This document shows, piece by piece, positions 3,224-25,258 of a stretch of 43,595 nt of DNA (position 1 is the first letter of the stretch; every line of letters starts with the position of its first letter). The translations under genes and the position numbers were made by a program. The stretch is taken from contig CP070673.1 of the NCBI GenBank assembly GCA_020351915.1, forward strand, positions 4,449,793 to 4,493,387, written 5' to 3'. Source of the stretch: Deltaproteobacteria bacterium (lineage in GTDB: Bacteria > Desulfobacterota > DSM-4660 > Desulfatiglandales > B25-G16). Below the pieces are notes generated by a model. The model did not search any database. It was given only the letters and a program-made list of their open reading frames with translations, and was not told where the DNA came from.

Positions 3224-3677
3224 ATGCACATCATTATGAATAGGACCAGATAAACCAATGCTCAGTAAAGAAATGACCACTTAGAAGCATTAGCCAAAAG
3301 GCGTCCACCGCATAGATCCACATAACGCAGAGATACATATTTAACAGGCTGTTGCCCGAACGGAAATCCCTTTGAGCGGTCATTAAAACGTTTTTTGCCG
3401 AAAAACCCTTGGCGAAGTGGAAGATAAAGGATGATTACTTTTTCCACTCCCTTTCCTCCCCAAGCGCTTGCAACAAGCTTTTCTATCGACATTCACCTCG
3501 ATTGGATTATATTAGTCAACACCTGTATCCTTTTCTCTTGATTCTGATTGTAACAAGGCATAGCTCGCGAATTCACCATAGTGACCCTCATTACCCTCCT
3601 CATTTCCTCATAGCAAAATTAAGGTAGATCTGTTATAGACTCCTCTTTTACTATGATTAAACGATGATCTTGATGGC
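3224..3677. other. Intergenic stretch with a dispersed repeat copy
   Basis: About 450 bases between the ADC-like gene and the first MFS gene. It contains one copy of a dispersed repeat (3342-3433, listed separately) and otherwise AT-rich sequence without a credible gene. The open frames across it are short and unlike known proteins. Confidence 0.5.
3342..3433 (+). repeat. Dispersed repeat, copy A (relative of the arm of the flgL-csrA foldback element)
   Basis: Begins TAACAGGCTGTTGCCCGAAC and matches 13844-13934 over about 92 bases with few differences (shared blocks include ATCCCTTTGAGCGGTCATT and CTTGGCGAAG). An inverted, more diverged relative lies at 14222-14302. Here only one arm is present, so it looks like a solo or decayed copy. 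Confidence 0.75.
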
Positions 3678-13065: not shown

Positions 13066-13560
13066 TTAACCCTCTGAGACAGTGTTCCCCACCTCATTCT
13101 GGCTACTTCCCGTATTATCATCTTTGTTCTTTCCTACCAGAGAAAACTTATGGGAATAAGGGCTGTCCGTAATGACCATCTGTACAGCCTGGCGGGTTCT
13201 GTTATTTATCAAGATGGGACCAATGAGGTTTGCGGTCATGTCGTCAGGTGAGCTCTTTGGGATATTAACAACTACATATAACTCTAACGTACCCTTGTCT
13301 TTGTCTTCAATCCAGGACATCTGCTCTACTGTATCCTCGAGGCGCACGGAATAGTCAGGCTTAAACAGGAATGGACTGGTAATCACAAAGGCAAGTGCTG
13401 GATCATCCACGGACTGGTACCAGAAGAAGGGTGAATCTTCTCTGTGCTGAAGGATAACATATCGTTTTTCTTCAGGAAATCCGAGCATACCAAAGGGCAT
13501 GGTAATAATCCTCTCTTCCCCTATGGTGATGGGCCCAAATCTTGTGGAGTCAATCTTCAT
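13066..13560 (-). CDS. fliW: Flagellar assembly factor FliW
   Basis: Binds CsrA and relieves CsrA repression of flagellin translation; also binds flagellin, so it senses the flagellin pool. 164 residues, with the family start [30 protein letters not shown] and [13 protein letters not shown], followed by an acidic, low-complexity tail of about 20 residues. Its ATG overlaps the csrA stop by ATGA, a classic coupled pair. It is the last gene of the flagellar units and converges with the AICAR transformylase gene across about 70 bases. Confidence 0.95.
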
Positions 13561-13808
13561 GGTTCCGTATCCCTGGGTCTCTTAGTTTGCAAAAGAGTGG
13601 CTGCCTCGGAGAGATCAGAGGCAGTTACTGCAGATGATATCAGGTTCTCTCTTTTAATTCTCTCATATATCTCTTGTCGGTGAATACTGATACCCTTGGG
13701 TGCTTCAATACCGAGCTTGACCTGTGAGCCTTTGATTTCGAGCAAAGCAATGACAATATCATTGCCGATAGTGATCCGTTCACCTAACTTCCTTGTTAAT
13801 ATAAGCAT
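13557..13808 (-). CDS. csrA: Carbon storage/translational regulator CsrA
   Basis: RNA-binding dimer that masks ribosome sites at GGA motifs. 83 residues: the core [19 protein letters not shown] and [19 protein letters not shown] with RNA-binding Leu4 and Arg44 is intact, plus a C-terminal extension of about 25 residues, as in FliW-controlled CsrAs, where the extension contacts FliW. The start ATG at 13808 is fixed by the invariant MLILTRK; an upstream TTG (13814) would add two residues. No good Shine-Dalgarno precedes it: 23 bases upstream the end of the foldback element begins, so the leader may have been replaced by that insertion. Overlaps fliW by 4 bases. Confidence 0.95.
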
Positions 13809-13830: not shown

Positions 13831-14316
13831 AGGGGTCAAACCTTAACAGGCTGTTGCCCAAACCGTAATCCCTTTGAGCGGTCATTGAAACCTTTTTTGC
13901 AAACAAATCTTGGCGAAGCTGAAGATAAGCGATGTCAACTGTTTGAGCCCTAAGGACAGAGTAACGTCCAAGTCCAGGGTATGGGTGTCTTTTTTTTTGG
14001 ATTATGCCCCACATAGTTTGGATGAGTGGGCGTTTCAAAATGGTTGATATAGATGGAGCGTATGATTCTAAGGCTTAGGACGCAATTAACCATTTTGAAC
14101 CGACCCAGTAAGTGGCCATATTATAGGGCATAACAAAAAAAAAGACACCCATACCCTGCAAGAAGCTTGAAAATTAATAGGTTACGTTCACTATAACGTG
14201 ACCCTGCCCTAAAGGCGAGTTTTGACATCGCCTGGAGCGAGCCTTAGATTTATCAAAAAACGTTTTAGACCAAGAGAAAGGGGATTTCGGCAACAGCCCG
14301 TTATGACGTGACCCCT
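13831..14316. mobile_element. Nested foldback (MITE-like) element between flgL and csrA
   Basis: A 486-bp imperfect palindrome without coding capacity. Outer ends: AGGGGTCA (13831-13838) and its complement TGACCCCT (14309-14316), continuing into TAACAGGCTGTTGCC on the left and the complement of AACGGGCTGTTGCC on the right, and further in to GCGATGTCAA on both arms (13929-13938 and 14222-14231). Inner stem: CAGGGTATGGGTGTC plus nine T (13975-13998) pairs perfectly over 24 bases with 14135-14158, and TTCAAAATGGTT (14034-14045) with AACCATTTTGAA (14088-14099). A third small palindrome lies at 14181-14202. No target duplication is obvious. The left arm has a partial relative at 3342-3433. It starts one base after the flgL stop. 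Confidence 0.8.
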
Positions 14317-14317
14317 A

Positions 14318-15184
14318 TTACGTTAAAAAATCAACCAGGCTCAGTTCCATAACCCTGACAGAAGAGGCCAAAGCAGTCTTAAAGGCAAGCTGTCTGGATT
14401 CCAGATCAATGATTGCCGCGGCCATATCCGCATCCTCAATCTCGGATAGCCTCTCGGTACTGCTGATAGTGTAATCCTGAAAGATCTTTTCTCTGGTTTC
14501 CATGTGGATCATCTTTGAGCCAATGCCCGATATCTTCGTGGTAATATGATCAAAATCACTATCAAGATTAGCCATCGCCGCGATAATTCCACCGACGTCA
14601 TTACCCTCCAAGGCATCTTTCAAATCACTCACGGTGGTGAAGAGAGCTCCAAACACCGCCTCCCCGTCACTTCCAACCTCGACGGTGGTATCATTACCTA
14701 TTTTAATGGCGAAGGCGTGATTATCCCCATGGTAGGTCCCGTCCTCATCGAATGGCACAGTATCGGTCTTCCACCCTGCAAAAACATACTCACCATTAAC
14801 CACTGTATTAGCTAAAGACACAATATCATCCAGTGTATTTTGCACAGTCTCGGCTGCAGCGGCCCGCTGTTCAGCATTGATGATCCCATTGGCCATCTGG
14901 ACACACAAGGCCTTTGTCTCGGAAATCATATCCTGTACCTGGCTCAGGGCACTTTCACTGGCAGCTAGCCAAGACCTTCCCATATTTATATTGCGTCCCA
15001 ATTGTTCAAGGTTTAAAAGAACAGATTTAATGTTTAGTGCCTCGCTAAGCTTTACCGGATCATCAGAAAGATCTGTGATGCGTTTGCCAGTTGTGACCAC
15101 CCTGTTGGCCTTGTTCAGCTCCTCGTTGATCCTGGCCAAGTCGAATTTTACCATATCGTAAACGGTCTTATTGGCTACCCTCAT
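14318..15184 (-). CDS. flgL: Hook-filament junction protein FlgL (HAP3)
   Basis: Second junction protein between hook and filament, exported by the flagellar type III apparatus. 288 residues, with the flagellin-like N-terminal coiled coil MRVANKTVYDMVKFDLARI and TGKRITDLSDDPV, a short central part, and the C-terminal coiled coil IEDADMAAAIIDLESRQLAFKTALASSVRVMELSLVDFL. GGGGGAG precedes the ATG by 9 bases. It follows flgK by 20 bases. Immediately after the stop codon the foldback element begins. Confidence 0.95.
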   Translation of the reverse strand: MRVANKTVYDMVKFDLARINEELNKANRVVTTGKRITDLSDDPVKLSEALNIKSVLLNLEQLGRNINMGRSWLAASESALSQVQDMISETKALCVQMANGIINAEQRAAAAETVQNTLDDIVSLANTVVNGEYVFAGWKTDTVPFDEDGTYHGDNHAFAIKIGNDTTVEVGSDGEAVFGALFTTVSDLKDALEGNDVGGIIAAMANLDSDFDHITTKISGIGSKMIHMETREKIFQDYTISSTERLSEIEDADMAAAIIDLESRQLAFKTALASSVRVMELSLVDFLT

Positions 15185-24696: not shown

Positions 24697-25258
24697 TTCT
24701 TCTCCTACCTGGCAAATGAGCAGTATTGGTTGTTAGTTGTCAGCATCCGACTCCGACGCTGCGCTTCTGAGTTATTCATCAAAGAAACTCTAAGTTATCT
24801 TCCTTGATGTATTAGACAGGATTAACATGATTTTTGTTGTCCTTTTGTCCTTCCCAGACGGAAGGACAAAAACCCAATGCCGCCAAAGGCGGCAAGAGAA
24901 GGCTCCGGGGTCAAACCAGAGATGGGCATTATGCCACTCAATAGAAAATGCACAACCCGGTTTTTATTTCTCCCGCGTAGCGGGATTTTTACCCCGTGAA
25001 ATGTGCAACCTATTTCACTGGGGCGTCTTTCTCAGTTTCTTCAGGAAGCTGAGAAAAAGAAAAGAAAATCCTGCAAATCCAGTAAATCCTGTCACATAAG
25101 AAAAAACCATTGATAATTAAGTTTCTTAGGAGTTGTTGCTCGAAAGAAACAAGTAAATCGACCACGCATCAACAAAAACAGGGCATTCGCTCTGTTCCAT
25201 CTCAATGTTCAGAAACGCCATTTACCTCTGGCAACGGGCTGCTCACAGAGCCCGAAAA
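24697..25258. other. 562-base gap inside the flagellar unit, filled with repeats and hairpins
   Basis: No gene seen. The stretch 24817-25095 (listed separately) is bounded by inverted repeats and packed with hairpins. GGGGTCAAACC at 24907-24917 is shared with 13832-13842, the left end of the flgL-csrA element. Confidence 0.6.
24817..25095. repeat. Repeat-type intergenic element with internal hairpins
   Basis: Its ends read GACAGGATT followed by ATGATTTT on the left and, inverted, GACAGGATTTACTGGATTT on the right. Inside are perfect hairpins: TTTTGTCCTTCC (24843-24854) with GGAAGGACAAAA (24860-24871); GCCGCC (24879-24884) with GGCGGC (24888-24893); and CCCGC-GTA-GCGGG near 24973. ACAGGATT-type text of this kind is commonly dispersed in related genomes (general knowledge, not searched). 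Confidence 0.6.

Follow-up and report, generated by a model that had tools for sequence, protein, structure and literature searches.

Among the nearest described counterparts of the element reported here is Chunjie, a gene-less MITE of Geobacter uraniireducens, which, as described in PMC10969869, is 178-235 bp long, has inverted ends and direct repeats, and occurs in tens of copies and many partial ones, mostly intergenic, with one copy residing in an operon. Cleavage by RNase III has been reported for another group of elements, the Correia elements of Neisseria, in mtrCDE transcripts (PMC10969869). In pithoviruses, the palindromic repeats M1 and M2 lie adjacent to each other, are associated with TA duplications and have no known autonomous partner (PMC10664404). 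Finally, IS1182-type elements can target palindromes, and IS1272 replaces the target hairpin without producing a target duplication (PMC5678879).

The locus analyzed here resembles each of these systems in part. Compared by description only, it is similar to Chunjie in being a deltaproteobacterial gene-less element and in its size, ends and copy pattern, and it departs from Chunjie in joining two different families, one nested in the other, which are mobilized together. The likeness to the Correia elements lies in intergenic MITEs ending up inside transcripts. As in the case of M1 and M2, two palindromic MITE-like repeats travel together and one of them is also found alone, the difference being that here one element lies inside the other and the duplications are of 4 and 10 bp. 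One of the two families, hereafter the outer family, also shares with IS1272 and IS1182 the preference for palindromic (inverted repeat) targets; unlike IS1272, it keeps the target, duplicates 4 bp and has not been linked to a transposase. The kind of element, a MITE, is already known; the two MITE-like families and their composite are newly documented.

The window, that is, the whole stretch of 43,595 nucleotides that was analyzed, comes from a single-contig genome of 5.09 Mb (G000), in which it spans bases 4449793-4493387. It carries an imperfect palindrome of 486 bases (13831-14316) in the gap between flgL and csrA, both encoded on the minus strand. flgL (14318-15184; N-terminal match to PF00669, Flagellin_N, E 1.3e-19) is directly upstream on the transcript, and csrA (13557-13808; PF02599, E 5.4e-24) is directly downstream, followed by fliW (13066-13560, minus strand; PF02623, E 5.5e-36). 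With the flgL stop at 14318 and the csrA ATG at 13808, the palindrome is separated from the two genes by 1 and 22 bases, respectively, and in this spacing, as well as in its coordinates and nesting, the first-pass annotation was correct. The inner arm which it described as perfect is indeed so, with a length of 25 rather than 24 bases (13975-13999 and 14134-14158); the outer arms of the reported feature form a 32-nt pairing at 81%, and a third, innermost inverted repeat occupies positions 14028-14048 and 14085-14105. The denial of coding capacity was fair, the sole ORF inside being one mechanical frame of 80 aa. Folded as DNA, the feature reaches -102 kcal/mol (shuffles, -51.5 ± 4.4; z -11.5), and folded as RNA of the flgL-csrA strand, it reaches -222.5 (shuffles, -144.5 ± 6.1; z -12.9).

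The feature contains a 454-bp composite of two unrelated gene-less palindromic MITE-like families, one inside the other. The element proper extends from 13847 to 14300. Its left portion (13847-13956, plus strand; CAGGCTGTTGCCCAAACC...) matches positions 1-107 of the outer consensus at 93.5%, its right portion (14207-14300, plus strand; ...GGCAACAGCCCG) matches positions 101-193 at 97.8%, and between them, at the apex of the outer element, sits a 250-bp inner element (13957-14206, plus strand) with the ends CAGAGTAACGTCC and ACGTGACCCTG. The last bases of the left arm (GCCCTAAGGA, 13947-13956) and the first bases of the right arm (CCCTAAAGG) are the two copies of the 10-bp target duplication of the inner element. 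The composite as a whole is flanked by TTAA (13843-13846) and TTAT (14301-14304), which match at three of the four positions and represent the 4-bp target-site duplication of the outer element. Beyond these lie the arms of a host palindrome, AGGGGTCAAACC (13831-13842) and GACGTGACCCCT (14305-14316), recognized as such by comparison with same-genus empty sites, which carry GGTCAGGTC(A/G)AGACCTGACC.

To examine this gap in relatives, we located it through the FlgL orthologs of G004, G003 and G002, which are 97%, 96% and 81% identical, respectively. G004 and G002 are empty, containing only a hairpin of ~20 nt, GGTCAGGTC-(A/G)A-GACCTGACC, which resembles the target consensus of the outer family. 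Hence, AGGGGTCA and TGACCCCT, which had been taken for the ends of the element, belong instead to the small hairpin of the host, of which they form the two arms. Nor are they a dispersed repeat: the pattern GGTCAGGTC-N0-6-GACCTGACC was found once in five genomes of the genus, at flgL-csrA of G004. G003 carries a simple outer element with a perfect duplication (TTAA/TTAA), in the orientation opposite to that of the window, which indicates either two insertions at one favored site or one insertion and an inversion. Only G000 among the four genomes has the composite at this site.

A BLAST search of the genome with the whole feature returned at least 98 matching pieces, which fall into two families. 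The outer family is a gene-less palindrome of ~195 bp (194-196) with the inverted ends CAGGCTGTTGCC and GGCAACAGCCTG. There are at least about 97 outer right ends in the genome of the window; 40 near-full copies, out of 139 candidates, were scored at 87-93%, and the mean identity of copies from several genomes is 94%. Identity between the 4-bp flanks is 0.787 (z 13.7; shuffled pairs, 0.488 ± 0.022), and the duplication is exact at 33 of 67 sites (~4 expected). In the flank columns the target consensus is itself palindromic, GTCA-N4-TTAA-N4-TGAC. Empty sites in same-genus genomes have 4 bp fewer at L048 and L053 and 5 fewer at L061. By a crude ORF prediction, ~50 of the 52 scored copies lie between genes, 30 of them between co-directional, 10 between divergent and 8 between convergent ORFs, with 2 edge cases, these proportions being without a genome baseline. 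The outer element thus combines terminal inverted repeats, short length, absence of genes, target duplication and a dispersed, multi-copy, mostly intergenic distribution, features by which MITEs are recognized. The assignment of the family to an IS1182/IS1272-like type was considered and rejected: a 4-bp duplication is present, and the flanks beyond the 20-bp consensus are no more self-complementary (0.392) than shuffled ones (0.375 ± 0.018).

A truncated outer element consisting of the left arm only is present elsewhere in the window (3345-3433, plus strand; positions 1-88 of the consensus at 92%), corresponding to the single-arm relative which had been placed at 3342-3433. Some outer elements have changed in length. 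In relatives, loci L220, L225 and L229 retain hairpin remnants of 24-46 bp where the genome of the window has full-length outer elements; such short remnants are expected if long palindromes lose their centers by central deletion. At L237 and L238 (in G003 and G001, orthologous to L048), the outer element has grown to 318-319 bp through extra sequence lodged between positions 66 and 83 of the consensus, a place other than that taken by the inner element.

The inner family is 250 bp long with ends CAGGGTMACGTCA, which in the window copy read CAGGGTAACGTCA and CAGGGTCACGTCA around a near-palindromic core of 184 bp (13975-14158). At least 85 inner tips were counted in the genome against 2 in a reversed-pattern control, which translates into roughly 40 inner copies. 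Direct-repeat identity of the 10-bp flanks is 0.624 (shuffled, 0.268 ± 0.029), and same-genus empty sites have 10 bp fewer at L026 (compared with G001) and L020 and 9 fewer at L017. The target columns display no clear preference. With inverted ends, no gene, a target duplication and multiple copies, this element too has the properties of a MITE. With respect to the element ends, the core is inverted between L001 (C1:4463617) and L003 (C1:4653938), and it probably flips through its perfect 25-bp arms. Variants with the same tips and longer middles, of 405 bp at L074 (604-1010) and 381 bp at L041, indicate that the inner family is heterogeneous.

Among the loci sampled, 9 left and 19 right junctions between outer and inner elements were detected, all at one position of the outer element and with one orientation of the inner ends. 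The left junctions mostly read GCCCTAAGGA or GCCCTAAGGG and the right ones CCCTAARGG, L030 and L172 each having one more G. The single position and orientation at all 28 junctions point to a single event, so that the nested unit most likely has one origin from which it spread; in the simplest account, an inner element inserted once into an outer one, and the product was dispersed via the outer ends. Apex targeting as a rule, whereby hairpins would insert into hairpins, was dropped: the outer flanks beyond the consensus are not unusually self-complementary, the inner target columns have no clear preference, and the repeated junctions are most readily taken as a single event whose product was dispersed. 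Three complete composites are available, each with its own 4-bp flanks: TTAA/TTAT in the window, TCAA/TCAA at L003 and TTAA/TTAA at L095.

Taken together, these observations make us highly confident that the structure at flgL-csrA consists of two nested palindromic transposable elements, both gene-less and non-autonomous, inserted into the gap. Most likely, the composite was formed when an inner element struck the apex of an outer one once, was mobilized via the outer ends and, in one instance, entered the loop of a hairpin. In this scenario, a 250-bp inner element would have entered the apex of an ancestral ~195-bp outer element, duplicating about 10 bp (GCCCTAAGGG). The composite, having kept the outer ends, would probably have been mobilized by the transposase that serves the simple outer elements, a putative enzyme, yielding composites with 4-bp duplications at several sites. 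One copy would then have landed in the loop of the small flgL-csrA hairpin, which matches the palindromic target preference of the outer family. The imperfect outer duplication of the window copy, TTAA/TTAT, is a point against this reading. The composite could instead have arisen in place, if gene conversion or recombination among the repeats had turned a simple outer element into a composite. A simple outer element does occupy this site in G003, and the ~94% identity of the repeat copies, which makes them a good substrate for conversion, is also in line with such an exchange. We nevertheless consider it unlikely: the copy in G003 is reversed relative to that of the window, so that an inversion would be needed as well, and the composites at L003 and L095 each have their own 4-bp duplication. 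A more far-reaching scenario holds that the outer transposase, through its preference for a 20-bp palindrome, makes intergenic regulatory hairpins recurrent landing sites, that the flgL-csrA hairpin was struck twice independently, and that the csrA-fliW leader is a recurrently remodeled, possibly reversible on/off attenuator in the genus; we regard this as improbable and put it forward as speculation. There is even less reason to class the insert as a REP/BIME-type element and to invoke a RAYT (TnpA-REP) transposase for its movement. Such elements are likewise short, palindromic, intergenic and numerous; however, units of 195 and 250 bp, flanked by clear target duplications of 4 and 10 bp, make this origin barely credible. 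Single-strand HUH transposition is not known to leave such target duplications.

Insertion, as opposed to a structure of local origin, is borne out by the many further copies in the genome, the empty sites in relatives and the duplicated target sites, and the proposal of a foldback element has to be revised in three respects: the insert comprises two nested elements of two families and not one, the ends that were proposed are part of the host site, and a transposase sharing the ends of the element was not detected among the loci sampled. It could be argued that the palindrome evolved in place under selection for an RNA structure that attenuates or insulates csrA-fliW, given that it lies on the flgL-csrA transcript, has a very stable predicted RNA fold, and is represented at the same place in relatives by a small hairpin of ~20 nt. 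A local origin is refuted by the empty sites, however, the sequence being a dispersed repeat that is missing here in two same-genus genomes, and selection for RNA structure appears very improbable: compensatory changes are nearly absent from the family alignment (2 of 47 pairs; covariation term, -0.73 kcal/mol), an Rfam search gave no match for either family, and no terminator-like site was found. Given families of dozens to ~100 copies and close relatives lacking the insertion at this site, the insertion at flgL-csrA is a recently mobile, parasite-like repeat and not a purpose-built control switch. Such a mobile insert may since have been exapted as a modulator of csrA-fliW, for instance, if the long hairpin is cleaved by RNase III. 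Its position, strand and predicted RNA energy would suit this role, and there is published precedent for MITE effects on transcripts in the Correia elements (PMC10969869); still, the insert is polymorphic within the genus and hence not required, which leaves exaptation a rather unlikely outcome.

Mobile origin notwithstanding, the insert may mechanically influence the expression of csrA-fliW. In RNA of the csrA strand, it is predicted to fold into a very long hairpin whose end would lie 22 nt upstream of the csrA start; this structure is the only support for the attenuating or insulating role suggested by the first-pass annotation. The most likely consequence would be incidental, with a slow or RNase III-cleaved leader that might partly separate csrA-fliW from the flagellar message. 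Cleavage by RNase III of transcripts carrying Correia elements provides a precedent for such a possible effect. Should csrA-fliW expression indeed be altered by the insert, the natural strains, which have zero, one or two layers, would constitute a ready test series. More generally, a "regulatory-looking" hairpin beside csrA which is explained as mobile DNA calls for caution in scans for RNA structure.

The search for a mobilizing transposase covered three families (PF13546, PF01609 and PF05598) and a subset of the matching loci in MAG assemblies. PF13546 had no match in the genome of the window, neither tip was present at any of the sampled PF01609 and PF05598 loci of the bacterial family, and the DDE_Tnp_1, DDE_5 and DUF772 matches sampled yielded no transposase with the same ends. 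Since MAG assemblies break at insertion sequences, and given the three families and the subset of loci, the absence of an autonomous partner is not proven; with none found, neither family can be assigned, as a MITE, to any named IS family. Tip pairs 894 bp (L075) and 1478 bp (L074) apart enclose no transposase-like ORF. One candidate partner, at L296 (1409-1785), combined an outer-tip-like sequence flanked by GTCA-N4-TTTA with a broken DUF772-type transposase fragment ~100 bp downstream; this was the sole such pairing seen, the same peptide was found nowhere else among the loci compared, and the pairing, probably due to chance, was dropped. ISAs1-type elements have CAGGG ends and an 8-10 bp duplication. 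The CAGGG ends and 10-bp duplication of the inner family recall these elements, a resemblance which we take as a lead only, and no linked transposase was detected among the loci sampled.

The inner element had no match in phages, and an outer copy compared with plasmids had none either. The exact 23-base outer end occurs in at least 89 stretches of the GTDB collection, and all of the matches listed are in MAGs titled Proteobacteria, Pseudomonadota or Deltaproteobacteria; judging from the isolate names, we read these MAGs as coming from marine sediments or cold seeps. With the whole window sequence as the query, 18 of 41 relatives were matched, mostly within the same family. The empty and filled sites document past mobility in an uncultured marine-sediment deltaproteobacterial lineage. 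The window also contains, at 24749-24819, an 86% copy of a further dispersed repeat of ~71 bp, which adjoins an outer element at several places in the same genome and in relatives, as in the flank of L059.
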